Shown piece by piece: positions 35,323-64,000 of a stretch of 64,000 nucleotides of DNA (positions within the stretch are counted from its first letter, which is position 1; the number at the start of each line of letters is the position of its first letter). A program made the position numbers and the translations under genes. The DNA lies in contig JAGWMJ010000011.1 of assembly GCA_028871815.1 (NCBI GenBank), forward strand, positions 1 to 64,000, given 5' to 3'. The notes under the pieces are model-generated. The model saw only the letters and a program-made list of their open reading frames with translations, was not told where the DNA came from and did not search any database. Origin of the DNA: Armatimonadota bacterium. Lineage in GTDB: Bacteria > Armatimonadota > Chthonomonadetes > Chthonomonadales > Chthonomonadaceae.

Positions 35323-35338
35323 AAGGCTGGACAGCGGC

Positions 35339-44200: not shown

Positions 44201-44735
44201 CACTCTGCTTGAGAACGCTGTCCAGCCAATTACGCTCGCGAATCTCTTCCGTCAACTTTTCGTTGGCCGCATTCAGTTCTGCGGTTCTACGCTGTACGCG
44301 GAGTTCCAGCTCGGCCTTGGCGCGACGCAGGGCATCTTCGGCGTGGCGACGTGCCTGACGCAGTTGGCGGTTCTGCGTAGCCTGCGAGACGGCCTGACCC
44401 AGGCGCGTAAGACTGTTTTTCAAAAGGTAGTCCGCCGCGCCAAGCCGGATGGCTTCCACAGCCAGCGACTCTCCAATCGCCCCTGCAATAAAGATGAACG
44501 GCGTGTCGAACGCCATTTCGCGCAGAACCTTCAGCGCCTCCAGCCCGTTGTATTGCGGCAGGCTGTAGTCCGCCAGAATGACATCCAGATCAGGCGAAAG
44601 CGCAGCCACAAAGTCGGCTTCGTTCTCAACGCGGTTTGAAACCACTTCGAACCCGGAATCGGTGAGAGCGCGGAGGATAAACTCCGCGTCGGTGGCATTA
44701 TCTTCCAGCAGCAGTACATTCAGCGGTCGTGACAT
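41277..44735 (-). CDS. Hybrid sensor histidine kinase with REC and HPt domains
   Basis: A signalling protein of 1152 residues. Order: N-terminal receiver (Asp56 in DVILADYSLPQYNG), coiled coil, PAS (about 235-345), GAF (about 360-480), HisKA with FVATMSHEIRTPLNG (His near 500), HATPase (610-725), a degenerate receiver (about 745-860, phospho-Asp not clear), a complete receiver (FMDCQMPVMDGYEA, Asp near 949) and a C-terminal HPt domain (IAHQIKGTALML, His near 1094). It has no membrane segments, so it senses in the cytoplasm. It contains every part of a phosphorelay. ATG 44735 has GGAG 11 bases upstream; ATG 44744 is an alternative. Last gene of the operon 48518-41277. Confidence 0.93.
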   Translation of the reverse strand: MSRPLNVLLLEDNATDAEFILRALTDSGFEVVSNRVENEADFVAALSPDLDVILADYSLPQYNGLEALKVLREMAFDTPFIFIAGAIGESLAVEAIRLGAADYLLKNSLTRLGQAVSQATQNRQLRQARRHAEDALRRAKAELELRVQRRTAELNAANEKLTEEIRERNWLDSVLKQSEHRHRMLARAANDALWDRDLTTQELVWSEGYTALFGYDTTESAVTLSQHIDRIHPEDRDRIIKSLNDFVQARGTYWTEEYRYHCADERVAHVLDRGYLVTEDGGEPVRMVGAITDMTHRRRADEAMAELERRATLEEAVGTAITSSHALRPMLQNCAQAVAEHFGAARVRIFTCDVAASMLNLEISEGSAPDPPGEQHVPIGRFAVGRVAQDRKPIMASTVSADQDSCDAEWAQREGISAYAGYPLIVERELVGVLEVFSRTPMTVMRFEALAAAADGIALAIDRSHNVRQLSEQSEALAKALKDAENASRMKSDFVATMSHEIRTPLNGIVGAATLLNGTPLSEEQRGFMQMLQTSAESLLEIVNDILDFSKIEAGKLQLESAPFSFAEMVANSTAMMATRAEEKRLDLVLRVSPAMPTALRGDSARMRQILLNLISNAIKFTEVGHVFVNVDVEDDQGDRITVVTRVEDTGIGIAPEKLDHIFDMFTQADSSTTRQFGGTGLGLAICRQLVQLMGGEITVSSTVGQGTAFAFTLTLPVAERSFEPAPIPLELANARVLLVGENALHRRVVREIITGRGLRTSECEAISDCADSAIRAAHDGDPFTVVVADTSRRTETLGEILEAVQSAGVSMAVVALSSRSAQHNERYSGHANVVAVPMPIVPEALFDAMARAFQAAHPTSGSAELSSAELTELAGGLPPVVVAPPVQAPVVAAPATIAASILVAEDNMVNQQVARRMLEKLGCTVDLVSNGKDAVTALGEKHYDAIFMDCQMPVMDGYEATAEIRRIQADTGLHVPIIAITANSMKGDKENCIAAGMDSYISKPIREQELRDALNLHAPHLFETAAAPTEIESVPEPEPAGMPAAPLPEAMSVEPEFVRSLMPLVESECPALCNGLRRSARTGDAEGVRRIAHQIKGTALMLNAYRFADVAAKLEDMGRRGNLSGVDGLLNELDHEYDVLHDALEKYAATA

Positions 44736-44844
44736 GGGATACATCTCTCCAGATGGGTGAGGTTTGGCAGGCACTTCCGGTTCTTTCGAGCCGGCAGACC
44801 CTGGGTGATGTGGTGGTTGCTCTTGCGGTTCGTTAACTGTATGC

Positions 44845-48518: not shown

Positions 48519-49188
48519 GGGATCGTTACCGCCTTTGTGCACCTGCAGTGATATAGTGCCGCACCCAGGCGAAGTATATCACTCCCACATCGGGCCAAAC
48601 GGCACAGATCGGCGGCCCACCTGCACTTTACAGGCGATTAGGAAGCACGAATCCGGCGGCAATTAGTGCCAATTCACGAGGAATTGGCGCGAAAAACGGT
48701 GCCAAAAACACAGACAAAACTTCACGTACAAAAGGGCCGTGACAGTGAGCCTGTTTCGGGCCGAAAGCCCGGGAGTGGGCGGCCCATCGGCACCCGTGTG
48801 TCGGCAGCGACATCATGGGCTGGAGCCCACTATCGCCCCGCAACTTTTATGTATACGCGCGCCTGAGGAGGCTGGACTGGGTCGGAAGTCCCTCCCAGAG
48901 GCGCCGATGGCTTCCCGAAACCTGCTGATACCGTTCCGGACGCATGCCGGCGTTTCCGGGACGCATTGCAACATCGAACGCGAGGAAGTTGTGAGGCTTG
49001 CGCGAGTTCGGCAGAGCTCATCCGGCAGCCGCGGTATGCATAGACCCGGAGCACGGTCCCGGCGGACCATGCGGGGATCGAAAAGTCGGAATGCCGGTGG
49101 CAGTTTGCGGTCGGAAGTACCTGCGCAGCACAGCCGGCAAAAGTACGTTACAGTTGGACGCGCAGTGCGTCAATGAGCGGAGGTGGTG
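48519..49188 (+). other. Intergenic regulatory region between signalling operon and pilus locus
   Basis: No gene is supported in these 670 bases; the open frames look like chance. It contains a 9-bp inverted repeat AGTGATATA/TATATCACT (48547-48555, 48575-48583), whose right arm overlaps TATACT (minus strand, 48573-48578), a likely -10 for the response regulator operon. It also has a GCCAATT/AATTGGC repeat (48668-48688) and a nested hairpin at 48859-48904. Together these suggest operators and an mRNA leader for pilB. I see no match to known c-di-GMP riboswitches. Confidence 0.5.
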
Positions 49189-50898
49189 TTGGCACAGGCA
49201 GCAATACGACTGACGAGCGGCCGGCTGGCGGAACTGTTGATCGAAGATGAGATCATCGATTCGCATCAGCTGGAGCGCGCCGAAGAGTATCAGCGACAAA
49301 CCGGCACATTCCTGGGCCAGGCGCTGGTAAGCCTCAACGTCGCGACACCACAGGTGCTCGGCGATTACCTGGAGGCCGCCACCGGGTTCCCCTACGTCTG
49401 TCTCGCCGACCGTGTGGTGGACGCGACTGCATCACAGTTGATCCCAGAGCGCATCGCGAGGCGCAAACAGGTGCTGGCGTTTGCCGAGAGCCGGGACGCC
49501 CTTGAAGTGGCGATGGCCGATCCACTGGATCTGGACACCGTTGACGACCTTCGGCTAAGGCTGAACCGGCCTATTGTGCAGTATCTGGCTTTGGAGTCGG
49601 ACCTGCAAGACGCGATCAATCGCGTTTACGATATTCGTGGCAAGGCGCAGTCGGCACTCGACGAGATCAATATCATCTCGACGGTTGAAGCGGAGCTCTC
49701 TCCCGACGAACTCGCCGACCTGGCTGAAGATGCGCCTATCGTCCGCCTGGTGAACGGAATCGTACAGGCTGCCGTCACGTCCGGAGCCAGCGACATCCAC
49801 ATCGAACCACAAGAAGATACGGTCCGCGTGCGGTTCCGCCAGGACGGTCTGCTGTACGAACAGATGACGATCCCGCGACAGCACGTGCCGGCGGTGGTCT
49901 CGCGCATCAAGATTGTTTCCGGCATGAACATCGCCGAACGCCGGCGGCCGCAGGATGGCAGGTTTGCGTTCAGCACGGAGGACGGCGTCGACTTCGACCT
50001 CCGCGTCTCCATTATGCCGGTCAAGTGGGGCGAGAAGGTGGTTATGCGCGTTCTCGCAAAATCGAGCGCGTTCGCCAGTCGCGACCGGCTCGGGCTGTTC
50101 CCGGAACAGCAAGAACAATTTGATCGGTTCCTCAAACGGCCGCATGGCATCATCCTGGTGACGGGTCCCACCGGGTCCGGTAAGTCCACGACCCTGTTTG
50201 CGGCGCTCAATCTGCTGAACGACAGCAGCCGGAATGTGAATACCATTGAGGACCCGGTGGAGTACGAGCTGCGCGGCGTCAACCAGATGCAGGTGGTGCC
50301 GCAGATCGGCGTCACGTTTGCGGCGGGCCTTCGCACACTGGTACGTCAAGATCCCGATGTGATCATGGTAGGCGAGATTCGTGATGGTGAGACCGCCGAG
50401 ATTGCCATTCAGGCTGCGCTCACCGGACACCTGGTGCTCTCCACGCTGCACACCAACGATGCACCCAGTTCATTGACACGCCTTCAGAACATGGGCGTGG
50501 AACCGTTTCTTATCAGCTCCGCGATGGTCGGTGTGGTCGGGCAGCGCCTTCTTCGTACAATCTGCACCAACTGCAAGGAAGAAATGCAAGCCACACGAGC
50601 GATGGTTGAGGCGCTCGACCTGCCCGTAAAGGGCAACAAGCTGCCAATGCTGGCGCACGGAAAGGGCTGCCACAAATGTGGGCAGCGTGGAATGAAGGGC
50701 CGAACTGCCGTATACGAAATCACCCCGATGTCGGACGCACTTCGCGAGCTGGTGTTAAAGCGCGCCGATGGAGCGCAGCTGCGGGGCCAGGCTATAGCAG
50801 AAGGAATGATTACAATGCGAGAGTCGGCGCGCCGCAAGGTACTCGCCGGTGTTACGACGCCGGAAGAGGTCGCGCGCGTCCTGTTTGCCGAGGAGTAG
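49189..50898 (+). CDS. pilB: Type IV pilus / type II secretion assembly ATPase
   Basis: A hexameric cytoplasmic ATPase that powers pilin polymerisation. It has 569 residues. An N-terminal MshEN-like domain comes first, then the PilB/GspE core with Walker A GPTGSGKSTTLFAAL, EDPVEYEL, the His box region and Walker B-like DPDVIMVGEIRDGETAE. The four-Cys zinc site is CTNCKEE and CHKCGQRGMKGR. TTG 49189 is chosen because GGAGG lies 5 bases upstream; two GTG codons just before it are alternatives. It is the first gene of the pilus locus; no retraction ATPase (pilT) follows. Confidence 0.94.
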   Translation: MAQAAIRLTSGRLAELLIEDEIIDSHQLERAEEYQRQTGTFLGQALVSLNVATPQVLGDYLEAATGFPYVCLADRVVDATASQLIPERIARRKQVLAFAESRDALEVAMADPLDLDTVDDLRLRLNRPIVQYLALESDLQDAINRVYDIRGKAQSALDEINIISTVEAELSPDELADLAEDAPIVRLVNGIVQAAVTSGASDIHIEPQEDTVRVRFRQDGLLYEQMTIPRQHVPAVVSRIKIVSGMNIAERRRPQDGRFAFSTEDGVDFDLRVSIMPVKWGEKVVMRVLAKSSAFASRDRLGLFPEQQEQFDRFLKRPHGIILVTGPTGSGKSTTLFAALNLLNDSSRNVNTIEDPVEYELRGVNQMQVVPQIGVTFAAGLRTLVRQDPDVIMVGEIRDGETAEIAIQAALTGHLVLSTLHTNDAPSSLTRLQNMGVEPFLISSAMVGVVGQRLLRTICTNCKEEMQATRAMVEALDLPVKGNKLPMLAHGKGCHKCGQRGMKGRTAVYEITPMSDALRELVLKRADGAQLRGQAIAEGMITMRESARRKVLAGVTTPEEVARVLFAEE

Positions 50899-50904
50899 AA
50901 CCCA

Positions 50905-52125
50905 ATGCCGAACTATCAATACACAGCGCGGGATCTTGCAGGAAAGATGACGTCGGGCAGTCTGCCAGCCGGAGACGTCGCTGAAGTACGCACACTTCTG
51001 CGCAACAAGAACCTGTACCTTACAACGGTGCGTGAACAGGCTGGACCGATCGAACAGCGGCCGGCCGGACTGTTCCAGCGCCGCAAGGTAAAGCTGAAGG
51101 ACATGGTGGTGATGAGCCGCATGTTGGCGACGCTGGTCCGTGCCGGCCTGCCAATCGTGGAGTGCCTTTCCGCCGTATCCTCGCAGACCGAGAACATCGC
51201 GCTGGCCAACGCGCTCAAGCAGGTGAGGGTGGATGTGCTCTCCGGCATGACGCTGGCCGACTCGCTGAAGAAGCATCCCAAGATATTCAACGAGACCTAC
51301 TGCTCGCTGGTTGTCGCCGGCGAAACGGGTGGCGTGCTGGACCAGACGCTGGAAGTAGCGGCAACGCAGTTTGACAAGGAAGCCGACCTGCGCGACAAAG
51401 TGAAGGCGGCGTTTGTCTATCCGATTATCGTGTTCATCGCGTCAATTCTGGTCGTGATGTTCATGCTGGTATTCATCGTCCCGGTGTTTGCCAAAGTGTA
51501 CAAGGACTTTGGCGCCAAGCTCCCGCCGATAACGCAGATGCTGATCGATCTCAGCGCCATTGTCATGGGGTACTGGTGGATTGTCATCCCGGCCATGATC
51601 GGTGTAGCGCTGTTGTTGAAGGCATGGGTCAAGACAAAGAAGGGCCGATGGGTTTGGGATACCGTCAAACTGAAGGTGCCCGTACTCGGCAAGCTGAACC
51701 GCAAGATCGCAATTGCCCGGTTTACGGAAACCCTGGCGGGCGCCATCAAGGCCGGAGTGCCGATACTTCGCGCCCTGGCCACAGCGGCGCAGACTTCCGG
51801 CAACGTGATCATTATGGATGCCGTTACCAGTGTCTCCACCGCGGTCAAGGAAGGCGCTACGTTGAGTGGCCCCCTGGAGTCTTCGGGACAGTTTCCGCCG
51901 ATCGTCACCAAAATGGTGGCCGCCGGCGAGCAGTCCGGAAACCTTGACGAGATGCTGGAAGAGGTGACCCACTTCTTCCATCGCGATATCGAGTACACGG
52001 TGGGCCAACTCACACGCATCATGGAACCTGCGATGACCGTGGTGGTCGGCGGCATCGTGCTCTTCGTCCTCCTGGCTCTGTACATGCCGGTATTCAACCT
52101 GACACAGGTTGTTCGCCGCCCGTAG
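50905..52125 (+). CDS. pilC: Type IV pilus inner membrane platform protein
   Basis: A polytopic membrane protein of 406 residues around which the pilus ATPase turns. It has the family start MPNYQYTARDLAGK, two T2SSF domains (about 70-190 and 270-395) and three membrane helices near 170-195, 220-245 and 375-400. AGETGGVLDQTLEVAA and AAGEQSGNLDEMLEEV are the repeated family motifs. It starts 6 bases after pilB and ends at a strong terminator. Confidence 0.95.
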   Translation: MPNYQYTARDLAGKMTSGSLPAGDVAEVRTLLRNKNLYLTTVREQAGPIEQRPAGLFQRRKVKLKDMVVMSRMLATLVRAGLPIVECLSAVSSQTENIALANALKQVRVDVLSGMTLADSLKKHPKIFNETYCSLVVAGETGGVLDQTLEVAATQFDKEADLRDKVKAAFVYPIIVFIASILVVMFMLVFIVPVFAKVYKDFGAKLPPITQMLIDLSAIVMGYWWIVIPAMIGVALLLKAWVKTKKGRWVWDTVKLKVPVLGKLNRKIAIARFTETLAGAIKAGVPILRALATAAQTSGNVIIMDAVTSVSTAVKEGATLSGPLESSGQFPPIVTKMVAAGEQSGNLDEMLEEVTHFFHRDIEYTVGQLTRIMEPAMTVVVGGIVLFVLLALYMPVFNLTQVVRRP

Positions 52126-52190: not shown

Positions 52191-52479
52191 CGTTCGTCCC
52201 ACCGTGGTCCAATCGCATAACCCCTCAAGGACCACAGCCGCCCTACCCTGCGGCGAGCCAATCGTTGCCTGAGCATATCTTCGGCCAACCGGCAAGCGCC
52301 GGCAGTCGACGGCGGGCGCCGGCACACCAGGGACTTAAGTTCCTGAACCGCTCCGTGCGATGGGCCGCATTTGGCGCATCACATGCCACAGGCAAGTGCA
52401 CTCTAACACTGTTCGAACCAGCAGTACGCGGGCTGACTCCGCGCCGGACGGGCAGTTTCCGTCCAAGAGCACGAACACG

Positions 52480-52872
52480 ATGACACGAACATTTGCCACC
52501 AAACACCGGCGGCGCGGGTTCACGCTGATCGAATTGTTGGTCGTCATCCTCATTCTTTCTTGCTTGATGGCTATCGCGCTGCCGATCTATCTTGGCGCAG
52601 TGGCCTATTCAGAGCGGAAGGTATGCCGGGCGAACCTTCAGGTGATTGCGTTTGCCATTCAAAGCGCCCGCGTCCGCGCTATGTCACAGGACTATTCTGC
52701 GTACATTGGCCAGCCGATCGGTCCGGGCACAGAGCCGGATCTGGCAACGGAGCCGAGGTGTCCGAGTGGCGGCGTCTACTCCGTGGTGGACGGCTCAAGC
52801 GGCGACGCCTCCACATTCAAGGTTGCCTGCACGCTGCACGGCACCTATGAGCTGGGACAGGACAACCAGTAG
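52480..52872 (+). CDS. Type IV pilin-like protein 1
   Basis: A protein of 130 residues with prepilin leader ending RRRG before [20 protein letters not shown], with Glu at position 5 of the mature protein. The globular part has the pattern CRANLQVIAFAIQSARV and ends with STFKVACTLHGTYELG. The same ending is found in the two pilins that follow, so it is their diverged paralogue. The start at 52480 is the Met nearest the leader; upstream frames are not protein-like. The preceding 289 bases hold no gene. Confidence 0.88.
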   Translation: MTRTFATKHRRRGFTLIELLVVILILSCLMAIALPIYLGAVAYSERKVCRANLQVIAFAIQSARVRAMSQDYSAYIGQPIGPGTEPDLATEPRCPSGGVYSVVDGSSGDASTFKVACTLHGTYELGQDNQ

Positions 52873-53117
52873 ACGCAGCCGACAGCGCTACGCCAGGTCC
52901 GCGTTCGTAAGCGGGCTCACTACGAGGAGGTGACGGTCAGCCATCGATTTCGCCCGGTCACTACGCGCTAACTACCTGCCAGGTTATGACAGCGCGATGC
53001 GGCCGCCCCATGGGCCTACTTCTGCGTCACCAACGGCCGAAATTCGGCACCCAGCGCAGCATTAAGCCTGCTCCAACTTCCGGGCCGCGTTAGTGCGGTC
53101 CCTGCCAAACCTCAGCC

Positions 53118-53132
53118 GGAGCCAAAGGCTCC
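53118..53132 (+). other. Small hairpin upstream of pilin 2
   Basis: GGAGCC-AAA-GGCTCC forms a perfect 6-bp stem 34 bases before the pilin start codon. It may affect mRNA stability or translation. The rest of 52873-53166 shows nothing else that I can name. Confidence 0.35.
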
Positions 53133-53166
53133 CCCAAATCACTCGGAACTCTTCAAGGAGAACGTA

Positions 53167-53565
53167 ATGCAGTCTGTCAACCGCAAGCGCGGCCTCGCTG
53201 GTCGCAAGGGATTTACGCTCATCGAGCTTCTGGTCGTTGTGCTGATCCTCTCTATTCTTATGGCCGTGGCGCTTCCACTCTACCTGGCCGCCGTGGCTGA
53301 TTCACAGAAAAAGACGTGTCGCGCAAATATGCAGACCATCGCCAACGCCGTAGAGGCCGCGCGAGTTGAAGGCAATTGGGCCGACTACTCGACCGCCATC
53401 GGCGCCGCGATTGGCCCAACCATAGAGCCCGACCTGAAAGCGACGCCGGTATGCCCAACGGCCGGCGCCTATAGTATCGAGCAGGGCAGCAGCGGCGACA
53501 ACACCACGTTCAAGGTTGCTTGTACGGTTCACGGCACCTTTGAGCCTGGCGTAGACAGCAACTAG
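53167..53565 (+). CDS. pilA: Type IV pilin-like protein 2
   Basis: A protein of 132 residues, probably a major pilin. It has a 15-residue leader ending GRKG, then [20 protein letters not shown] with Glu5. The body has CRANMQTIANAVEAARVEG and a Thr/Gly-rich C-terminus with two cysteines (VCPTAG and VACTVHG), likely bonded as a D-region loop. AAGGAG stands 6 bases before the ATG. It differs from the protein at 54151 at only 9 positions, five of them in the leader, so it is a recent duplication or is kept similar by gene conversion. Confidence 0.92.
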   Translation: MQSVNRKRGLAGRKGFTLIELLVVVLILSILMAVALPLYLAAVADSQKKTCRANMQTIANAVEAARVEGNWADYSTAIGAAIGPTIEPDLKATPVCPTAGAYSIEQGSSGDNTTFKVACTVHGTFEPGVDSN

Positions 53566-53583
53566 TCTCGCCTTGCATCCGGG

Positions 53584-53639
53584 CGGTCCGGCAGCTGCGC
53601 CACTCGGGCGCGCTGCCGGGCCGTTCGCGCCTTTTATTT
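53584..53639 (+). terminator. Terminator-like hairpin after pilin 2
   Basis: An 11-bp stem with one G-T pair (53584-53594 with 53613-53623), followed after GC-rich bases by CCTTTTATTTG. It could end or attenuate the pilin 2 transcript. Confidence 0.6.
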
Positions 53640-54150
53640 GCCCTCCGTGAGCCCAAGGACGGAGATGTCTGATCGCTTACCGCCGGGCGCTGGCCGCTAA
53701 CAAGATCGCGACCATCCCGCGGCGGTTCGAGGCCGGAACAGGCCGTAGGTCAAAAGTACCCGCCCAAACAGCCCGCTTAGGGTCAAAGCGTCCTCAACAA
53801 TTAGTACTAGCAACCGCACAATACCTGTATCGCGCCGAAGCGGTTAAGCCGCCAACACAATCTGTGGTGAGCAGTCCGCGGCGTTCAATGTGAAGATCAG
53901 ACGTGACACAAACTCAGCGAGGAACCGAAGGACGGGCTGCCGGCACACGCAGGGCCCCAATCTGCCGAGATTGCGCGGCATGGCCGCTTGTTCCGCCGAG
54001 TCCTCATCCACTGCCGTACCGCGTCCGTTCACCACACGATACCAGGGCGATAACATCGGTCAAGGCTTGCCGCAAGCGGCACGGCCACGATCCACTTCCA
54101 CATCGGGGCACCGTGTCCCACGAACCTCAGAAGAACTGAAGGAGACCGTA
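53640..54150 (+). other. Intergenic region between the twin pilin genes
   Basis: About 500 bases without a supportable gene; the open frames are not protein-like. It should carry the promoter of pilin 3. A stretch at 53780-53808 read on the minus strand (GTACTAATTGTTGAGGACG then CTTTGACC) resembles the 3' end of bacterial 23S rRNA, but flanking rRNA sequence is absent. Confidence 0.4.
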
Positions 54151-54549
54151 ATGCAGTCTGTCAAACATGCGCGAAACCTCCGGGGTCGCAAGGGCTTTAC
54201 GCTCATCGAGCTTTTGGTCGTTGTGCTGATCCTCTCGATCCTTATGGCGGTCGCACTTCCTCTCTACCTGGCAGCCGTCGCCGATTCACAGAAAAAGACG
54301 TGCCGCGCCAACATGCAGACCATCGCGAACGCTGTAGAAGCGGCCCGCGTTGAAGGCAATTGGGCGGATTACACGACTGCGATCGGCGCAGCCATTGGCC
54401 CGACCGTAGAGCCCGACCTGAAGGCAGAGCCGGTCTGCCCAACTGCCGGTACCTATAGCATCGAGCAGGGCAGCAGCGGCGACAACACCACGTTCAAGGT
54501 TGCCTGTACGGTTCACGGCACCTTTGAGCCGGGCGTAGACAGCAACTAG
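54151..54549 (+). CDS. pilA: Type IV pilin-like protein 3 (near-identical copy)
   Basis: A protein of 132 residues. The leader ends GRKG, then [20 protein letters not shown]. From the leader onward only four residues differ from pilin 2 (Ser/Thr, Ile/Val, Thr/Glu, Ala/Thr), whereas the leader itself and the upstream DNA differ strongly. GAAGGAG lies 6 bases before the ATG. The two may be alternative or mixed major subunits. A 10-bp hairpin (54571-54580 with 54596-54605) without a T tract follows. Confidence 0.92.
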   Translation: MQSVKHARNLRGRKGFTLIELLVVVLILSILMAVALPLYLAAVADSQKKTCRANMQTIANAVEAARVEGNWADYTTAIGAAIGPTVEPDLKAEPVCPTAGTYSIEQGSSGDNTTFKVACTVHGTFEPGVDSN

Positions 54550-54662
54550 GCGTCAGACACACGCCGAATCGCCGGCAGCGGCGCCCGTTTTGGGTCGCTG
54601 CCGGCAATTCACTCCAGCGAGACAGCATACGAATTCAGGAACTGCCCCGCGGGGCGCCGGCA

Positions 54663-55061
54663 ATGAAGAAACGAAATCGAACACAGGGCTTCACGCTCAT
54701 CGAGATACTCGTCGTCCTGATCATCATGAGCGTTATGATGGGTCTTGCGACCGTCCTCTACACCCATGCAATAGCTAACGGCGACTATCAACAGTGTTAT
54801 TCCAATGAGCAGTCGGTTGCAAACGCGGAGGAGCAGTACCGGCTGCGCAGTTCCGCTCACACCTATACCACCTCGATCGCGAGTCTACGAGCGTTGCTGC
54901 CGACGACACCGGTATGCCCGGACGGCGGCACGTACTCCATTACAATCTCCAACGGCTCGGCCACGGCCAACAATGGCCAGCTGGTGCCGAATGGACAGAT
55001 CGTGGTCTCTTGCAGCGCCAGCGGACATCCCAAGTACGCCCCCGGCATCGACACACCATAA
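54663..55061 (+). CDS. Pilin-like (minor) protein
   Basis: A protein of 132 residues. The leader MKKRNRTQG is followed by FTLIEILVVLIIMSVMMGLA with Glu5. The body differs from the major pilins but keeps a Cys in CYSNEQSVANAEEQYRL, TTPVCPDGGTYSI and a second Cys near the end (VVSCSASGHPKYAPGID), a parallel to the major pilin ending. It is probably a minor pilin. It is followed by two more prepilin-like genes and transcribed with them. Confidence 0.88.
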   Translation: MKKRNRTQGFTLIEILVVLIIMSVMMGLATVLYTHAIANGDYQQCYSNEQSVANAEEQYRLRSSAHTYTTSIASLRALLPTTPVCPDGGTYSITISNGSATANNGQLVPNGQIVVSCSASGHPKYAPGIDTP

Positions 55062-55081
55062 CGGAGGCCCACGGCAGAGAG

Positions 55082-55555
55082 ATGCAAATCAGAGTCCAAC
55101 CAGCAACCCGGAAGAGAACGCGTCCGGGCTTCACGCTCATTGAAGCGCTTGTGACTTCCCTTATCGTCACCATCTCGGTGGCCTCGGTGGTGAGCATGTG
55201 GTACTTCGCGTACAACATGGATCGCCTTACGGACGACCAGGGTGTGGCTTACAACCTGGGTCGCAGCGCCATTGAACAGGTGCACGAGACGGGATTCTAC
55301 GACACCGCCGAAGCGCCGGTCAATAACCCGGTGATCTACTACTACGACCACAACGAAGTCAACCAGACGCTGACGCCCGCCAACGCCCAGTTCAAGGTGA
55401 CCGTCTCGGTGGTCAGTGACAAATCCAGCGGGGCGACCACCGGCCAAACATGGGCCGACGACGCGCTCCGTACAGTTACCGTCACCGTGACGCGAATCAG
55501 CGATGGGCGCCAACTGTACCAAACGGTTACCTACCTTGCGAGGGATGGAATATGA
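55082..55555 (+). CDS. Minor pilin, PilV/GspI-like
   Basis: A protein of 157 residues. The basic leader ends RTRPG before FTLIEALVTSLIVTISVAS with Glu5, the pattern of PilV-type minor pilins that help start the pilus tip. The rest is beta-rich (FKVTVSVVSDK, LRTVTVTVTRISDGRQLYQT). It lies 20 bases after the previous gene, and its stop overlaps the next start (ATGA). Confidence 0.85.
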   Translation: MQIRVQPATRKRTRPGFTLIEALVTSLIVTISVASVVSMWYFAYNMDRLTDDQGVAYNLGRSAIEQVHETGFYDTAEAPVNNPVIYYYDHNEVNQTLTPANAQFKVTVSVVSDKSSGATTGQTWADDALRTVTVTVTRISDGRQLYQTVTYLARDGI

Positions 55556-56157
55556 AGCCGCATGCTAATCACCGCGGCCAGGTGCTCACGGAAGCGCTGG
55601 TCGCCTCGGCAATTATGGTTCTAATCGGCGCGGCGCTCGCCACCCTCGTCATGACCACCTACCGCTCGCGATCGCTGATATCTGAGAGTGACGCCAACCT
55701 GGCAAACGCACGGCGCACGGTGGACGAACTTGCCGACAACATCCGAATGGCGCAGCTGTACGCCACGACAAGCGGCGGGAGCATGGGCGGCGGGCAAAAC
55801 ACGTACTCAGCCGTTGCCGCGGCCACCGCGAACAGCGTGACCATCTATACCGACAGCTCCGGCGACACCGCCGAGTTCTGGCTGGACACCAGCAACAACA
55901 CGTTGGAAAAGACCGTGGGCGCCACAACGACGGCGCTGCTTGAGAACGTGACCAGCCTGCAGTTCACCTACTACACATCCGGCGGCGAGTACAACGCGCC
56001 GGCCAGTTCATGGACCACAACCGCCAATCCACAGGCGCCGACCAGCGCCGAGTTACCGGAACTGGCGGCTGTGGCGATCTCGGCAACTGTGGCACAGAAC
56101 GGCTACAGCCGCACACTGAACACCCAGGTACGCATGCGCTGCAGCCCTTACCACTAG
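55552..56157 (+). CDS. Minor pilin, PilW/GspJ-like
   Basis: A protein of 201 residues. The N-terminus MKPHANHRGQ is followed by VLTEALVASAIMVLIGAALA, a prepilin-like helix with Glu5 but with Gln-Val at the cleavage site rather than Gly-Phe, so processing could be atypical. SESDANLANARRTVDELADNIR is a helix typical of PilW/GspJ, followed by a Ser/Thr/Gly-rich beta domain. The start overlaps the stop of the previous gene. Confidence 0.8.
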   Translation: MKPHANHRGQVLTEALVASAIMVLIGAALATLVMTTYRSRSLISESDANLANARRTVDELADNIRMAQLYATTSGGSMGGGQNTYSAVAAATANSVTIYTDSSGDTAEFWLDTSNNTLEKTVGATTTALLENVTSLQFTYYTSGGEYNAPASSWTTTANPQAPTSAELPELAAVAISATVAQNGYSRTLNTQVRMRCSPYH

Positions 56158-56395: not shown

Positions 56396-56433
56396 CCACC
56401 AGAACGGAAGTCATCGGGGAGGAGAGATACCCA

Positions 56434-58008
56434 ATGCGAGTTCCTAAAAAACCGATACTCGGCATCCACGTCCATCCGCTGGGCGTGCGCGCCATCGAAG
56501 CTCGCGGCGCATGGAGTTCGCCGCAGTTCGCCAACGCCCGCGAAGTACCGCTGCCAGCCGGCGCGATCGATGCGGGACGGATCATGCAGCCAGACGCTCT
56601 GGTTGCGGCTCTGCGCGAGCTGGTCGGACCTGTGGATGGCCCCACCGACGTGGTGATGTCGATCAGCGCTCGCGGCGTAATGACGCACGTCATTGAGGCG
56701 CCGCCGGCGCCGGATGCTGAGATGCGTACGGTTATCGAGGGAGAGCTTGAACACTATCACATCGTAACCACCGCCAACAACGCCATCGACTACTTGCGCC
56801 TGCAGCAGCGCGACGGCAACCGCACCGACCCATCACCGCAGGTTCTCGTCTCGGCTGCCGAACAATCGCTTGTAGATGGCTACTGCGATGCTGCCGAGCG
56901 GGCTGGGCTGCGATTGGTAGGACTTGAGCCGGAGCTGCTGGCGATGTACCGGTTGGCGGCTCAGGAGGCCGGCCAGATCGAGGCGGCAATTGCCGTAACT
57001 GTGGGATCGGAGCAGACCGAACTCGCGGTTACCAGCCAGGGTGCGATCCGGCTGTATCGCCGGATTGACGTAGGCGCAAGGCAGCTGGTCGGCGCTCAGC
57101 CGGGCCTCTCCGCGGATCCGCTGACCGGCCCGGTGGTGCAGACCGGGCCCGGATTCAATGTGGTGTCGGCAATGAACCTCGCCACCGAACTCCGGCGCTC
57201 GCTGGACTACTACGGGAGCCAGTTCCCCGAAGCCGTAAAGCCTGAGAACGTGGTTCTGGTGGTGCAGGATGCCGAGTTGGCCGGACTGGCCGACTGGCTT
57301 GGAAATACGCTGCGGCTGCCCGTCACGCTGGCGTCACCGCAGATCCTCAGCGACGGCGCCGCGCCAGGCGAAAGTAACTGCAGGTATGCCGCGGCAGCCG
57401 GATTGGCAATGCACAACCTGGCCTCCCATCCGAACACCGTTCCGAGATTCGATCTCGCGAAACGCAATCGGGCAGCCGACGCCGTAGAGTTTGAGCGCCG
57501 CAAACTTGTGGGCGCGCTGGCGATCTCCATCGCGGCTGTCGCCGCCGGCGTTATCATCGCCGTGGCTGTTGGAATCCATGCCAACGTGGTTCAGGCGGCC
57601 GTATCGCAGCAAAAGCAGAGCATTGCTGGACTTCAACAGCAGCGCGGCGCCGAGGTCGCCAGAGCCCAGCATGAGGACTCCCTGTCCAAGGCTCTGGCCG
57701 GCCAGGGTTACCCACTGCCCTGGGTCATGGATGCCGTAGCGCAATCGATGGCCGAGAAAGCCGGGCTTAGCGACGCACGGCTCGACCCGGGGGCCAAGCT
57801 TGTGCTTACCGGCGATGCCGCCACCAACCAGGCGGTTATTCAGACGCTGGAGCATCTGCGCGACTCGACGCAGCTGCAGGGCGCCTCGCTCGACTCATTC
57901 GACTCGACTAATGAACAGCATCAGAAGCAAGTCGTACACTTCCAGATATCCGCTTACCTCGCCGGCGCGCCGGCGGCCACGGTAGGCGGTGTGAAGCAGG
58001 GAGGCTAG
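56434..58008 (+). CDS. PilM-PilN fusion protein
   Basis: A protein of 524 residues. Residues 1-360 match the actin-like PilM fold (ELEHYHIVTTANNAIDY, VLVSAAEQSLVDGYCDAAERAG and GLEPELLAMYRLA regions). PRFDLAKRNRA near 365, one membrane helix (about 380-405) and a periplasmic coiled coil and ferredoxin-like part are laid out as in PilN. In most bacteria these are two genes; PilM binds the cytoplasmic N-terminus of PilN, which a fusion would make permanent. The PilM phosphate motif, normally GIDIGSxxVK, reads GIHVHPLGVR here, so nucleotide binding is doubtful. GGAGGAGAG precedes ATG 56434. Confidence 0.82.
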   Translation: MRVPKKPILGIHVHPLGVRAIEARGAWSSPQFANAREVPLPAGAIDAGRIMQPDALVAALRELVGPVDGPTDVVMSISARGVMTHVIEAPPAPDAEMRTVIEGELEHYHIVTTANNAIDYLRLQQRDGNRTDPSPQVLVSAAEQSLVDGYCDAAERAGLRLVGLEPELLAMYRLAAQEAGQIEAAIAVTVGSEQTELAVTSQGAIRLYRRIDVGARQLVGAQPGLSADPLTGPVVQTGPGFNVVSAMNLATELRRSLDYYGSQFPEAVKPENVVLVVQDAELAGLADWLGNTLRLPVTLASPQILSDGAAPGESNCRYAAAAGLAMHNLASHPNTVPRFDLAKRNRAADAVEFERRKLVGALAISIAAVAAGVIIAVAVGIHANVVQAAVSQQKQSIAGLQQQRGAEVARAQHEDSLSKALAGQGYPLPWVMDAVAQSMAEKAGLSDARLDPGAKLVLTGDAATNQAVIQTLEHLRDSTQLQGASLDSFDSTNEQHQKQVVHFQISAYLAGAPAATVGGVKQGG

Positions 58009-58012
58009 TTCC

Positions 58013-58732
58013 ATGGATCGCAAGCTGATTTACAAGATAGGCACGGTCGCCGCTCCGGTGCTGTGCTGCTGTTTCGCCGTGGGAATCGGCATGTTCGAGT
58101 TCATGCGGCTTACCAACCTGAGGTACCAGGAGGCCAGTGGCACTGCCCAAATCTCCGACCTGCAAAACGCCCTGCGCGACCTGGCCAACCGGCCAAAGTC
58201 CGCGCGGGTGCCGGTTGTGGCCGACTCGAATATGGAGCAGGCGCAGTTTGTGAACGCCCTGCGCGTCATTGCCGACACCTCCAAGGTCAGCCTGGTGCGC
58301 TGGTCGGTCGGTCAGACAGCGCCAACCACCGGACCGGGAAGCGCAACCAAGGGTGCGCCGGGCTCCAAGTTCCCAACCGGTGTTTCGCCGATGACCAATC
58401 TGATCGAGATCAACGGCACCTTTGCGCATGCACGCACTTTCCTCTACAACCTGGCGCGGTATCGCCGCCTTCTGGCACTGGACGACCTCCATTGGCAGCG
58501 CACAAACGGCTGGCCGGTTACGGACCTCTCGTTCACCGTAACCCGCTTCATCGTGCCTGCCGGCCAGGACGTGGATGCCGATCCGGATATCGATCCGCAA
58601 GCCAACATCCAGCCGCTGCAGAACGGACCTGCCGCTTCCAACGGCGCCGCGGCGCCAATCGCCATGAATTCGCATTCGATGCCCCGTATAGAGCGGGTCG
58701 CATCTGTAACGCCTGCTAGCATGGGCCGGTAG
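58013..58732 (+). CDS. pilO: Type IV pilus PilO-like alignment protein
   Basis: A protein of 239 residues with one N-terminal membrane helix (about residues 9-32, with four Cys in a row region ALCCC-like), a coiled coil (ISDLQNALRDLANRP) and a ferredoxin-like periplasmic domain (MTNLIEINGTFAHARTFLYNL, in part). This is the PilO layout. It pairs with PilN to link the inner membrane platform to the secretin. It starts 4 bases after the PilM-N gene with GGAGG upstream. The C-terminal 50 residues are Pro/Ala/Asp-rich and probably disordered. Confidence 0.83.
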   Translation: MDRKLIYKIGTVAAPVLCCCFAVGIGMFEFMRLTNLRYQEASGTAQISDLQNALRDLANRPKSARVPVVADSNMEQAQFVNALRVIADTSKVSLVRWSVGQTAPTTGPGSATKGAPGSKFPTGVSPMTNLIEINGTFAHARTFLYNLARYRRLLALDDLHWQRTNGWPVTDLSFTVTRFIVPAGQDVDADPDIDPQANIQPLQNGPAASNGAAAPIAMNSHSMPRIERVASVTPASMGR

Positions 58733-58761: not shown

Positions 58762-60672
58762 GTGAAATCCCCATCCATAATCACAATCGGTCTGTGTGCC
58801 GTCATTGCCGGAGGCGCGGTAAACGCCGCCCCGGTACCGCGAACGCACTTCGACCATATGGCTTCAGCCTCCGGCATACGCCTGAGCTTTTCAAATACCG
58901 ATGCATCCGACGTGCTTCAGGCGCTGAGCCTGAAGTCGGGCGCCAGTATCGTGTTTCCAGCGCAGATGAAGCGGATGATATCGATCAACGTGACGGCGCC
59001 GGATGTTCAGACGGCACTGGGCTACATCACGGCGGCAGCCGGCCTGGCATTTCGCGAGGTCGGAAGCACATATGTGGTGGCAGAGCCGAAAGACCTCCGC
59101 CAGGCCCTCGAGCCATTCGCCACGCGAGCGCATCTGCCTCTCAACCTGCTCTCTGCGTCCGACGCCGCGAGCATGCTGGAATCGGCCCTGCCCTATCTGA
59201 CGGCGCGCCCTGCCGGCGACGAGGTGCTGGTAATTGGGTCCGATGAAGACATCGCCCAGGCGCGCACTATCCTTGCCGACTCGGATCGTCCGGGCGGCGC
59301 CGGCCAGCCGGTGACCAGGGTGGTGGAGCTGACACACGTCTCGTCGGCGCAGGTAGCAAAGATGCTGCTGGCGATGTATCCCGGCATTAAGGTGCAATCG
59401 GTGGGCGACAGCGCCAAGCCTGGTGGCGTGGTTGGTATAGCAGGGCCACGTGCGCTGGTTGAGGAAGCCAGCCGCACCGTAAAAGCTGCCGATATCCCGG
59501 GCCAGGATGAGAATCCCGATCGCCGGTACAGCGTGTACCACATCAAGTACAGCAGCGCACCGCAGCTGGTGAAGTTTATGCAGACCGCCATGCCCAACGT
59601 GTTTACCGTGATGGGACCGGAACGGTATACACCGAAGGCGCCGTCGTTCACGCCACTTGGCGGCAACACCCTGTCGGCTTCGACCTCCAACAGCGGTGGC
59701 GGAAGCGGCGGCGCGGGTGGCGCGGGCGGAGCCGGCGGCGGCGCGGCCGGGTCGTCCGGCGGCGGCTCTACCCTGAACGCCGACCCCACGATTCCCAAAC
59801 CGAAAGATGGCGACCGATCCACCACACTGGTGCTTTACGGCCTGCCACAAGATCTGAATGCGGCTATCCGCTTGCTCGACAAGGTGGATATCCCACCGAA
59901 GCAGGTGATGGTACGCGTTGAGGTAGTGGATACCTCTCCAGAGAGGGCCGAGAACCTTGGTATGCAGTTCAGCTGGACCCCGTTCCAGTTCCTGGAAGCC
60001 AAGCAGGGCACGCCCGTGGCCAGTGCGACAGCAAACACCACCGGGCCCGACTTCGCCTACTTCAGCCGCGTGCCATGGTCGTTCCAGAGCATTCTGAATG
60101 CCATGGTGACGCACTCCGATGCCAAGATACTGGCCGATCCTTCCGTAGGCGTGCTGGATGACGACAGCGCCAGCATCTTCATCGGCGATACGCTGAGAAC
60201 CACCATCTCGCAGGCCGGCCTCTCCGGAACCACACTTCAAGTGGTGGAGTTCCCGGTAGGCATTGCTCTGCTGGTTCGGCCGCGGGTGAACGCCAATGGC
60301 GAGATCACCATGCACGTGCATCCCGTGGTCAGCACCGTTACCTCGATCGGCACCGACAACCTTCCACAGACCGCTTCTCGCGAAGCCGAAACCACCGTCA
60401 TGGTGAAGAGTGGTCAAACGGTGGTGATCGGCGGCCTGATCAAGGATGAGATGACCAAGACGATCTCCGCTATTCCGTTCCTCTCGAACATCCCGATCAT
60501 CGGAGAGCTGTTCAAGAATACGTCGACGGACCGCAAACACAGTGAGATTCTGGTCTTCATCACTCCCTACATCGTGGATGCACAGCATCCCGGACCCAGC
60601 GCAGACGTGCTGGGTGGGCCCGACGCGAACGCAGAGCATGCGCAGCAGCAGGGCATGGAGCACTCCAAATGA
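58762..60672 (+). CDS. pilQ: Type IV pilus / type II secretion secretin
   Basis: An outer membrane channel subunit of 636 residues. A signal peptide (1-22) precedes a secretin-TonB N-like domain (LSFSNTDASDVLQALSL), two N1-type domains and a Gly/Ser-rich linker (59692-59770). The secretin core has ILADPSVGVLDDDSA and the family end signature with TVVIGGLIKDEMTKTI and SNIPIIGELFKN. AAGGAG precedes the GTG start. It is downstream of pilO and its stop overlaps the next gene (ATGA). Confidence 0.94.
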   Translation: MKSPSIITIGLCAVIAGGAVNAAPVPRTHFDHMASASGIRLSFSNTDASDVLQALSLKSGASIVFPAQMKRMISINVTAPDVQTALGYITAAAGLAFREVGSTYVVAEPKDLRQALEPFATRAHLPLNLLSASDAASMLESALPYLTARPAGDEVLVIGSDEDIAQARTILADSDRPGGAGQPVTRVVELTHVSSAQVAKMLLAMYPGIKVQSVGDSAKPGGVVGIAGPRALVEEASRTVKAADIPGQDENPDRRYSVYHIKYSSAPQLVKFMQTAMPNVFTVMGPERYTPKAPSFTPLGGNTLSASTSNSGGGSGGAGGAGGAGGGAAGSSGGGSTLNADPTIPKPKDGDRSTTLVLYGLPQDLNAAIRLLDKVDIPPKQVMVRVEVVDTSPERAENLGMQFSWTPFQFLEAKQGTPVASATANTTGPDFAYFSRVPWSFQSILNAMVTHSDAKILADPSVGVLDDDSASIFIGDTLRTTISQAGLSGTTLQVVEFPVGIALLVRPRVNANGEITMHVHPVVSTVTSIGTDNLPQTASREAETTVMVKSGQTVVIGGLIKDEMTKTISAIPFLSNIPIIGELFKNTSTDRKHSEILVFITPYIVDAQHPGPSADVLGGPDANAEHAQQQGMEHSK

Positions 60673-61496
60673 CACCGATTCGAGCCGAGGACAAGCCGAA
60701 GCTATACGCCATTCTTGGCGCGCTGGGCATCGTGGTTCTCTACCTGGCTGTGTTTCAGCTGCCCAAGGTGATGGGACACAGCAAACCTTCGGCGGCGGTT
60801 AGCACCTCCGCGCCGGTGCAGACGGCTTCGGCCTCTGCTCCGGCCGGGGCTGCCGGCGTAAGCAGTACGGACATGCTGAACCCGATACCTGCCCTGCCGG
60901 CTGACCCATTCAAGCCACCGGTACCCGGCGCATCTCTGCACTCCGCCGCAATGCAGATAAAGCCGGTCGTGCCGTCGCCGATGGTGGCAAGCGGTCTGGG
61001 CGGCGGGCACATTCCCCCGCCGGCGGTGCAGCTGGTACCGGTATCGGTGCAGCTGCAGGGCGTAATAACCGGCTCACCAGCCGTCGCTGTGTTTCAGGTT
61101 GGCGCCGCCGTGGAGCCGAGAACATCCGGGCAGCAAGTGGTGCCCACGGTTACTCTGCACCGGATCTCGGATGGCGGGGTCTACCTGACCTGCAGTGGCC
61201 AGGATACCTTTGTACCTGTTGGCCACGACGCCGTTTTCTCGATACCCGGCACGCTGGCGCCCGGAGTACAGCCGCCGGTGGTGCATGTGGCGCCGCAAGC
61301 GCCTGGCGTACCTGTAGGCGCGCTTCAGCCGGCAGCGGTTACGCTTCCGGGAATGGCGCCGGCGGGTGGCGTAGCGCCCCATACCGTAACCTCGGCGATG
61401 GACGCGTCGCCGCCGGATACCAGCCGATATGTGGCACGGTGGCGCCAGTACTACATGATGGCTCAAACCGAGCAGTGCGGGACCGCAGCGCCGTAG
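60669..61496 (+). CDS. PilP/GspC-like inner membrane pilus protein
   Basis: A protein of 275 residues. It has a short cytoplasmic start, one membrane helix (about 12-30), then a long Ala/Pro/Ser-rich linker. A small beta domain follows (about 120-190: VQLQGVITGSPAVAVFQVG, VTLHRISDGGVYLTCSGQD), which resembles the HR domain of PilP/GspC that touches the secretin periplasmic part. A second Pro/Val/Ala-rich tail follows. The identification rests on shape and position rather than strong motifs. Coupled to the secretin gene by ATGA. Confidence 0.7.
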   Translation: MTPIRAEDKPKLYAILGALGIVVLYLAVFQLPKVMGHSKPSAAVSTSAPVQTASASAPAGAAGVSSTDMLNPIPALPADPFKPPVPGASLHSAAMQIKPVVPSPMVASGLGGGHIPPPAVQLVPVSVQLQGVITGSPAVAVFQVGAAVEPRTSGQQVVPTVTLHRISDGGVYLTCSGQDTFVPVGHDAVFSIPGTLAPGVQPPVVHVAPQAPGVPVGALQPAAVTLPGMAPAGGVAPHTVTSAMDASPPDTSRYVARWRQYYMMAQTEQCGTAAP

Positions 61497-61530: not shown

Positions 61531-64000
61531 ATGACGCTGGCGCCAGCACAGTCAGAAAGAGCGGCCCTCGGCAGCAGCGGCCGGATGAGAATCCGGGCGC
61601 TGCTGCTGGAGGACTGCCCGGACGACGCGGAACAGACGCTTCGCGAACTGGAACGGCAGGGCTTCGACGTCGACTGGAAACGTGTCGATTCGGAGTCCGC
61701 CTTCGCTGCGGAGCTCAACTCCGAGCTCGACGTTATCCTTTCGGATTACAACTTGCCCCAATATAACGGTGTGGAGGCGCTGCACCGGGTGAAGAGTGCC
61801 GACCTGGACGTGCCCGTGATTATCATCACCGGCGCCGTTGGCGAGGATGTGGCTGTAGACGCGATGCGCCTGGGAGCGGCCGACTACCTCTTCAAAGACA
61901 ACCTGAGACGATTGGGAGAGTCGGTCCGCCAGGCAATTGAGGCGCGCCGAATGCGCAGCCAGGCCCAGGAGTCGCAGCGAGCGCTGCGTGAAAGCGAGGC
62001 GCGCTTTCGGCAGATGGCCGACTGTGCGCCGGTTATGATCTGGCAGACCGATGCCGATAACCTGGGTTCATATTTCAGTGCAGGCTGGCGGAGGTTTACC
62101 GGTCGCACACTGGAAGAGGAGCTGGCGACCGAGCCCCGTCAACGCGTACACCCCGATGACTGGGATCGGTATATCTCGGTAACGGCGTCGGCCAGTGAGA
62201 CGCGCAGCGATTTCGATATTGAGTACCGCATGCTGCGGAGCGATGGCACATACCGCTGGATCCTGGACCACGCGGTACCGCGGTTTCTGGATGACGGTAC
62301 GTTTGAGGGTTATATCGGCATCTGCACCGACATCACAAACCGGATGCAGGCCGAAGAGAGCCTGCGCCACTTTGTCCGCAGCGCCAATTGCCTGATGTGG
62401 AGCGCCACGGTGACTCGCCAGAGCAAGGGCGACTTTGCCTGGGTTGTGGACGCGGTAGACCAGGCGACGGCCGAACGCTTTTTGCCGCTGAGCTATCAGC
62501 CTGGGGAGCGCTGGTCCGAGGCGTGGTACCGAAGCAAGCATCCGGATGACACGGCGCATATGGATCAAATGGCGATAGACGCGCTGGAAAATGGCGTCGA
62601 CGGATACCGGCAGAGTTTTCGCTGCACCGACGCCAACGGCGCGCTTCGATGGCTGTACGAAGATGTGAGGATCACATCCACCGGACCGGAGTCGTGGTCG
62701 GTGGTGGGCCTGTGCACCGACGTTACCGACACCCGGCGGGAGCAGACACTGAACGGTGCGTACGCGGCGGCTTTGGAGCAGATCGCGCGTGGCGCCACCG
62801 CCGAAGAGGTACTGGGAGGGCTGATCACTACAGTGGAATCGCTCTATCCCGGTCTGATGTGCGGAGTATGGCTGCTGGATGAGAGCCGAACCGTGCTGCG
62901 GGCAACCGTGGCGCCAAACCTGCCGGAGGGATACAAGCAGTTTGTTGACGGCGTCGCGATCGGCGACGGTGTGGGCAGCTCCGGCACCGCGGTTTTCCGG
63001 CGCGAGCGCGTCATCGTGGAAGATATTGCCACCAGCAACCTCTGGACCGGATACGCTGAGACCGCTCTACAGTTTGGTCTTGCGGCATGCTGGGCCGAGC
63101 CAATCGTGTCGGGTGAGGGCGACGTATACGGTGCATTTGCTTTCTATTACACAACACCGCACAAGCCGGAGCCTGCCGAGGAGCGACTTGTTGCCGCTGC
63201 CGCCCGTATCGCCGGTATTGCCATGGATCGAATCCGGTCTGCCGAAGCGCTGCGCAACAGCGAGGAGCGGTTCCGGTGCCTCATCGAACGCAGCTCCGAT
63301 ATTATCGCAATATACGATGAGGAAGGCACCGTCAAGTACATCAGCCCAGCCATCGAAGCGGTTCTGGGATACAAACCGGAAGAAGTGATTGGCGGCAACG
63401 GCTTCGACAACGTGGTGTTTGATGATATTGAGCGCGGTACCGATGTCTTCGATACTCTGTTACAAGACGGCGCCGGCCACAGCACACTGCAGTGCCGGGC
63501 GCTAGCCAAGGACGGTTCCATTCGCTACATGGACGTGGTCTTCACGCCGCTGCTCCACCATCCCGGTATTCAAGGCGTGGTCGCCAACATCCGCGACATT
63601 ACCGAGCAGTCGCTGGCTGCGGAGGCGCTGAGCGAGCAGGCGCAGCAGCTGGCCTACTCCAACGCGGAGCTTGAGCAGTTTGCATACGTGGCGTCGCACG
63701 ACCTGCAAGAGCCGCTCCGAATGGTTTCCAGCTACACGCAACTGCTGTCGCGGCGGTACAAGGGCCGGCTCGACTCGGACGCTGACGAGTTTATCGGCTT
63801 CGCCGTGGACGGCGTCACGCGGATGCAGCGCCTGATACAGGACCTGCTGAAGTACGCACGGGTTGGTACACAGGCAGCGGAGTTTCGATCAGTAGCTATG
63901 GACGCGATAGTCGATGCGGCGCTGAAGAACCTGGAAGTGGCTCTAAGCGAGTGTGGCGCCGAAGTGACCAGCGATCCGCTGCCGGTGGTACATGGCGACG
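61531..64000 (+). CDS. REC-PAS-GAF-PAS sensor histidine kinase, 3' truncated by window edge
   Basis: The frame is open from ATG 61531 to the window end (823 codons). Order: N-terminal receiver (about 18-135; VILSDYNLPQYNG with phospho-Asp), helix, PAS (about 155-270), a second PAS-like module (about 280-400), GAF (about 410-560), PAS (about 575-690) and phytochrome-type HisKA (VASHDLQEPLRMV). The HATPase lies beyond the window. The receiver resembles that of the hybrid kinase at 41277 (same YxLPQYNGxEAL core), so the two kinases at either side of the pilus genes appear related. It follows the PilP-like gene by 34 bases and may be co-transcribed. Confidence 0.9.
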   Translation, partial: MTLAPAQSERAALGSSGRMRIRALLLEDCPDDAEQTLRELERQGFDVDWKRVDSESAFAAELNSELDVILSDYNLPQYNGVEALHRVKSADLDVPVIIITGAVGEDVAVDAMRLGAADYLFKDNLRRLGESVRQAIEARRMRSQAQESQRALRESEARFRQMADCAPVMIWQTDADNLGSYFSAGWRRFTGRTLEEELATEPRQRVHPDDWDRYISVTASASETRSDFDIEYRMLRSDGTYRWILDHAVPRFLDDGTFEGYIGICTDITNRMQAEESLRHFVRSANCLMWSATVTRQSKGDFAWVVDAVDQATAERFLPLSYQPGERWSEAWYRSKHPDDTAHMDQMAIDALENGVDGYRQSFRCTDANGALRWLYEDVRITSTGPESWSVVGLCTDVTDTRREQTLNGAYAAALEQIARGATAEEVLGGLITTVESLYPGLMCGVWLLDESRTVLRATVAPNLPEGYKQFVDGVAIGDGVGSSGTAVFRRERVIVEDIATSNLWTGYAETALQFGLAACWAEPIVSGEGDVYGAFAFYYTTPHKPEPAEERLVAAAARIAGIAMDRIRSAEALRNSEERFRCLIERSSDIIAIYDEEGTVKYISPAIEAVLGYKPEEVIGGNGFDNVVFDDIERGTDVFDTLLQDGAGHSTLQCRALAKDGSIRYMDVVFTPLLHHPGIQGVVANIRDITEQSLAAEALSEQAQQLAYSNAELEQFAYVASHDLQEPLRMVSSYTQLLSRRYKGRLDSDADEFIGFAVDGVTRMQRLIQDLLKYARVGTQAAEFRSVAMDAIVDAALKNLEVALSECGAEVTSDPLPVVHGD

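Follow-up and report, generated by a model that had tools for sequence, protein, structure and literature searches.

A PilM-PilN fusion with GspL architecture in a probable third type-IV-filament machine of an Armatimonadota bacterium

Introduction

The L protein of the type II secretion system (T2SS) is called a PilM-PilN fusion outright in the portions of two reviews drawn on here (PMC10191384, PMC6325625), and the statements on PilM-PilN fusion found in the parts of the literature covered concern this T2SS protein. GspL is bitopic, with an actin-like domain, one transmembrane segment and a ferredoxin-like periplasmic domain. According to the excerpt of the work used here, the N-terminal part of BfpC is structurally similar to both PilM and GspL (PMC4471445). 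Separate PilN proteins begin with a cytoplasmic tail carrying motifs like INLLP. After reassignment, T2SS loci are also attributed to the Armatimonadetes, as the consulted part of one survey reports (Denise 2019, PMC6668835).

Here we describe a PilM-PilN fusion gene at position 56434 of a 64,000-nucleotide stretch of Armatimonadota DNA (hereafter the window, meaning the whole stretch analysed). Its features, and those of the gene cassette in which it lies, are collected in Table 1.

Table 1. Coordinates of the fused gene, its parts and its cassette (window positions)
Feature	Position	Strand	Basis or remark
Fused PilM-PilN bitopic inner-membrane adaptor, GspL architecture	56434..58008	+	524 aa
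Actin-like PilM-type cytoplasmic domain, residues 1-344	56434..57465	+	Pfam PilM_2, PDB profile matches, VIA-align
Degraded phosphate-1 motif GIHVHPLGVR, residues 10-19	56461..56490	+	motif comparison
Degraded phosphate-2 region, residues 185-204	56986..57045	+	motif comparison
Conserved PRFDL, residues 337-341	57442..57456	+	P and L invariant in 16/16
Single transmembrane segment, about residues 361-379	57514..57570	+	hydropathy scan
Periplasmic PilN/GspL ferredoxin-like domain, residues 425-510	57706..57963	+	Pfam PilN; model on 5HL8
GspE/PilB-family assembly ATPase with MshEN domain	49183..50898	+	Pfam, NCBIfam, tree
GspF/PilC platform protein	50905..52125	+	Pfam, NCBIfam, tree
Six prepilin-like genes	52360..56157	+	ORF starts 52360, 53167, 53890, 54663, 54914, 55450
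PilO/GspM-like partner	58013..58732	+	structure model; no Pfam match
Secretin	58762..60672	+	Pfam, NCBIfam, tree
Possible GspC/PilP-like linker	60669..61496	+	weak profile match; no Pfam match

Results

One frame joins PilM-type and PilN-type domains

The gene runs uninterrupted from ATG to stop, and a ribosome-binding site rated good (GGGGAGGAG, 56416-56424) lies 9 bases upstream of the ATG. The initial annotation had read it as PilM and PilN in one polypeptide, with a membrane helix between them and a PilN-like C-terminal part, and had proposed profile searches, full-length structure prediction and a look at related genomes. All three readings of the frame were borne out. Pfam searches matched both families above their cut-offs: PilM_2 (PF11104) on residues 16-218 (E 7.4e-12, 45.3 bits against a cut-off of 27) and PilN (PF05137) on residues 432-508 (E 3.2e-5, 24.3 bits against 22.8). 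Between these two domains the hydropathy scan found the sole hydrophobic segment, whose start lies at about residue 361, or 390 when counted in the longer GTG frame. The product has the bitopic layout of GspL and, unlike PilM, is not a separate soluble cytoplasmic protein, as helix and PilN domain occupy the same frame.

We also searched the PDB with a profile of the 16-member family described below. It matched PilM chains across the profile as far as about position 359 (3JC8, 4.5e-34; 2YCH, 5.7e-26; 5EOU, 3.4e-24) and the PilN of 3JC8 over positions 375-505 (1.1e-4); a GspL chain was not found in this search. The full-length AlphaFold2 model, built from four sequences, is of low confidence (mean pLDDT 54.9) and its PilM half is poor; the periplasmic part, mostly at a pLDDT of about 74-83 per block, is the sole part on which we relied. 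When the model was compared with VIA-align, residues 4-326 of this low-confidence structure matched Thermus PilM 2YCH best (Z 15.1, rmsd 5.3, 260 aligned), and residues 425-510 matched the periplasmic domain of PulL, 5HL8 (Z 11.5, rmsd 2.1 A, 78 of 81 residues). Plain Foldseek had no GspL chain among the 50 matches listed, 5HL8 emerging only with VIA-align. A link by sequence between the family and proteobacterial GspL was tried and rejected: hhalign against E. coli GspL gave a probability of 0.9% and a spurious 43-column match.

The fusion is conserved in relatives

Searching the window protein against 61 genomes returned full-length or nearly full-length matches in one frame in further genomes that belong to the same family and order. 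A four-member alignment of the family also detected three relatives among genome contigs, a kinship by which the window reads as Armatimonadota; a scan of viral contigs gave none. Our alignment holds 16 window-type proteins from 13 genomes, the window's own included, and 15 relatives in 12 other genomes keep the fusion in the same layout. Window-type matches of genomes G003 and G025, cut by contig ends, are absent from the alignment, and remoter window-type matches are represented by two rows. PilM_2 was matched by all 16 proteins and PilN by 13 of them at E <= 0.01. Where contigs allow, the relatives also keep the order of the cassette, with ATPase, platform and pilins before the fused gene and, after it, one of about 180-240 codons, the secretin and the last gene.

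A census of the 61 genomes gave 94 PilN matches. At least 45 of these, in at least 33 genomes, lay in the same frame as PilM and at least 28, in at least 25 genomes, beside a separate PilM; at least 10 of the 61 genomes hold both arrangements. The counts are lower bounds, with 21 of the 94 matches left without a paired PilM, and pairing used only PilM rows on the contigs of PilN matches together with matching rows of the window-protein search.

The genome itself holds both arrangements at two other loci. In the type IV pilus (T4P) locus on C6, PilM and PilN are separate genes. The C4 locus is a canonical T2SS (E, F, G, H, I, J, K, L, M, C; names from layout and domain scan) whose GspL slot is taken by a fusion of 673 aa. 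This protein matches PilM_2 at 4.8e-18 and, weakly, PilN; the latter match, at E 0.003, stands outside the 94 counted. The T4P is split: PilB is followed by a PilT-like gene on C1 (C1:623296-626452), and the remainder, comprising PilM, PilN, PilO, a PilP-like gene and a secretin, lies on C6 (C6:136822-144014; L060, L035).

A juxtamembrane motif sits where PilN keeps its tail

Ahead of the helix, the window protein carries PRFDL at the position that holds the PilN tail motif [IVL][ND]LxP in T2SS GspL fusions and [IV]NLLP in separate PilN. A looser pattern, P-x(1,2)-[FLM][DN]L, occurs ahead of the helix in 16 of 16 window-type proteins, against 0.010 per protein expected from shuffled sequences; in the 13 T2SS fusions of the same order, [IVL][ND]LxP is likewise present in every one (shuffled expectation 0.0025 per protein). 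The juxtamembrane motif was not found in the two distant window-type proteins. Its position and the loose motif suggest that PRFDL is the equivalent of the PilN tail. If the tail is indeed kept in the linker, docking on PilM would take place within one chain.

The cassette stands apart from the T2SS of the phylum

The fused gene is flanked by pilin genes and a PilO-like gene, not by GspK and GspM as in a T2SS operon. GspK and a GspG-type pseudopilin were not found in the cassette, of whose six pilins five were scanned with Pfam, and a PilT retraction ATPase was not found in or near it, a PF00437 search of the genome giving only the 49183 ATPase on C11. NCBIfam named ATPase, platform protein and secretin GspE, GspF and GspD as best matches, all below cut-off. 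The modelled 58013 protein resembles PilO 2RJZ most closely (Z 13.0, rmsd 1.7, 96 aligned), with PulM 8A9X scoring lower (Z 8.6); the two best PDB matches of the 60669 family profile are GspC, though weak (E 0.025 and 0.08). No description of the cassette was found in the portions of the literature on Armatimonadota T4P and T2SS that were covered.

Several further observations concern the cassette and its surroundings. The MshEN domain of the ATPase scored E 6.4e-18, and the NCBIfam c-di-GMP-binding MshE-related motif reached 37.4 bits, just below its cut-off of 38; the machine may be controlled by c-di-GMP. A direct repeat of 300 nt with 84% identity (53142-53441 and 54126-54425) is common to two of the pilin genes, whose products show 93% identity across 132 residues, evidently a recent pilin duplication inside the cassette. 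Directly after the cassette starts a protein with response-regulator, PAS, GAF and His-kinase domains (61531-63999); similar receiver-PAS kinase frames, identified by reading, lie upstream (41277-44924, 44845-47790). Apart from the cassette, a DUF1559-type prepilin-like protein (SBP_bac_10, N_methyl) is encoded at 35210-36184.

In phylogenetic trees of ATPase, platform protein and secretin, all unrooted and with long branches, the cassette forms a separate third line outside the Armatimonadota T2SS group. The window-type line contributes 16 rows to the PilM tree, 14 to the secretin tree, 5 to the platform tree and 4 to the ATPase tree, the lower numbers reflecting contig ends or cut genes. The cassette's secretin clusters with those of T4P from other families (100/98). 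A 99/92 branch divides the ATPase tree, and the cassette's ATPase falls on the side of PilB; this placement is weak, because the long-branched E. coli references lie on the other side, the T4P-type HofB included. The platform tree favors neither side clearly: T4P and T2SS stand together apart from the window line (88/81). On the tree of PilM domains, the step between fused and separate takes one change; tying the window group to either separate-PilM subgroup costs 10.3 lnL units and is marginally rejected (p-AU 0.042 and 0.035).

We weighed these results against three other accounts of the gene. The cassette might be a diverged T2SS and the protein simply its GspL, with a single fusion event shared by all GspL, as the sub-threshold NCBIfam names, the single change on the PilM-domain tree and the GspC matches of the 60669 family would lead one to expect; however, three trees set the cassette outside the phylum's T2SS, its secretin and ATPase incline to the T4P side, the two T2SS components sought among its pilins were not found and the 58013 partner is more like PilO than GspM, and we hold this account to be possible but only tentatively so. 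The secretin tree, the ATPase tree and the PilO-like partner instead favor a machine of the T4P side where the joining of PilM and PilN was an event separate from that in GspL, or else the breakup, in T4P, of an ancestor that was already fused. Against it stand the sufficiency of one change, the marginal rejection of a joining with separate PilM and the unrooted, long-branched state of all the trees, which leave it likewise no more than tentative. Finally, that a sequencing error, frameshift or assembly join fused two genes here is so improbable that we set it aside, because nothing was found in its favor and the 16 proteins come from 13 genomes and share the one-frame layout.

The nucleotide-binding motifs are degraded

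A further claim of the initial annotation was that the nucleotide motif is degenerate and reads GIHVHP at its start; this holds exactly as written for the window protein, where PilM has GxDIG, and extends to its family. The position of the ATP-binding Lys of PilM is occupied by Arg19. Across the 16 window-type proteins, the motif Asp is kept in 11 and replaced by Glu in 4, with His in the window protein only, and 15 lack the second Gly.

We compared motifs in 62 proteins: 23 separate PilM, 16 window-type, 2 distant window-type, 13 T2SS GspL-slot proteins of the same order and 8 fusions from other families. Of the 23 separate PilM, 22 carry GxDxGxxxxK; none of the window-type, distant or order GspL-slot proteins does (0/16, 0/2 and 0/13), while 7 of the 8 other-family fusions have it. 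The [DN]xG[AGS] motif is distributed likewise (22/23, 0/16, 0/2, 0/13 and 6/8). GG at the adenosine-side strand was found in 22/23 separate PilM, 1/16 window-type proteins (L038, off-place as read), 4/13 order T2SS proteins and 6/8 other fusions. Fusion itself does not remove the nucleotide site, since six or seven of the eight other-family fused proteins in the phylum keep these motifs. Within that group of GspL-slot or GspL-like proteins, L080-L085 and L088 have intact motifs and L086, the eighth, does not; several of the seven lie in canonical T2SS cassettes and, to judge by their motifs, they may represent GspL that has retained ATP binding.

On a PilM tree built without the motif's own columns, presence or absence of the Lys takes three changes, and the nucleotide site therefore decayed more than once. 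Read from the rows, the Lys was lost in a single separate PilM (L100), in the window line together with its distant relatives, and in the order's T2SS line. As far as sequence can tell, the motifs degraded separately in the window line and in a single GspL line of T2SS, and a degraded site is not unusual for a GspL-type protein. In Thermus PilM, the K26A substitution abolished ATP binding, while the ATPase was still bound and stimulated (PMC6325625, in the part consulted); by our own reading, K26 is the Lys of the GxDxGxxxxK motif. A PilM part that binds no ATP can thus still couple, and a decayed site need not alter coupling. It is plausible, from the motif changes, that the window protein is nucleotide-independent.

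Discussion

We consider it very likely that the 56434 gene encodes a GspL-architecture adaptor of a third type-IV-filament machine, with coupling that is probably ATP-free. The PilM part would most likely anchor the ATPase of the same cassette (49183) to the membrane, and the periplasmic domain would pair with the 58013 protein and the pilins, both as in PulL and EpsL. The PilN-tail segment, which in T4P docks on PilM, would be covalently attached in the fused protein, and docking would consequently be intramolecular and permanent. With its nucleotide motifs degraded, coupling probably runs without ATP on the PilM part. A more elaborate history is that a T4P-side machine gained a GspL-type fusion independently, that tethering made ATP-dependent docking dispensable and that the site then decayed in parallel with the T2SS GspL line of the order; as a whole we think this sequence of events unlikely.

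The fusion arrangement is known from bacterial T2SS, and its occurrence in a further, pilus-like machine of the Armatimonadota is mostly expected. Of interest is a probable third type-IV-filament machine that combines the fusion with degraded nucleotide motifs. Three states coexist within one phylum, namely separate PilM with an intact site, fused with an intact site and fused with a decayed site, which opens the role of PilM-bound ATP and the origin of the T2SS from T4P to direct comparison.

Among known systems, BfpC of type IVb pili is similar through its N-terminal part, which published work likens to PilM and GspL. The window protein resembles type IVa PilM and PilN in its families, PilM_2 and PilN, and in its matches to 2YCH, 5EOU and 3JC8; it differs from them in being a single polypeptide with degraded nucleotide motifs and no separate PilN tail. 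With the GspL-slot proteins of Armatimonadota T2SS (that on C4 of the same genome; L069-L079 and L087; L080-L082, L085 and L088) it shares a fused PilM_2 and PilN-like part. Those scanned match PilM_2 and PilN rather than T2SSL models, a T2SSL match not being found in any of seven fused T2SS-side proteins (L036, L069, L080, L081, L082, L084, L085). Unlike the window protein, however, the GspL-slot proteins are flanked by GspK and GspM on contigs that show this, those of the order keep [IVL][ND]LxP (13/13), and some in the phylum keep nucleotide motifs.

Compared with GspL itself, the window protein matches neither Pfam T2SSL nor GspL_C up to E 1, whereas the control E. coli GspL matches both (2e-84 and 6e-42), and by sequence it is nearest to PilM; its cassette, in which GspK and a GspG-type pilin were not found, falls outside the T2SS of the phylum in three trees. 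Yet like GspL (PulL, EpsL, XpsL, OutL) it joins an actin-like cytoplasmic domain, one helix and a ferredoxin-like periplasmic domain in one chain. The initial annotation had suggested a different design of the alignment complex, and that suggestion did not survive: the design is the published one of GspL, PulL and EpsL, and a second example lies in the genome's own T2SS on C4.
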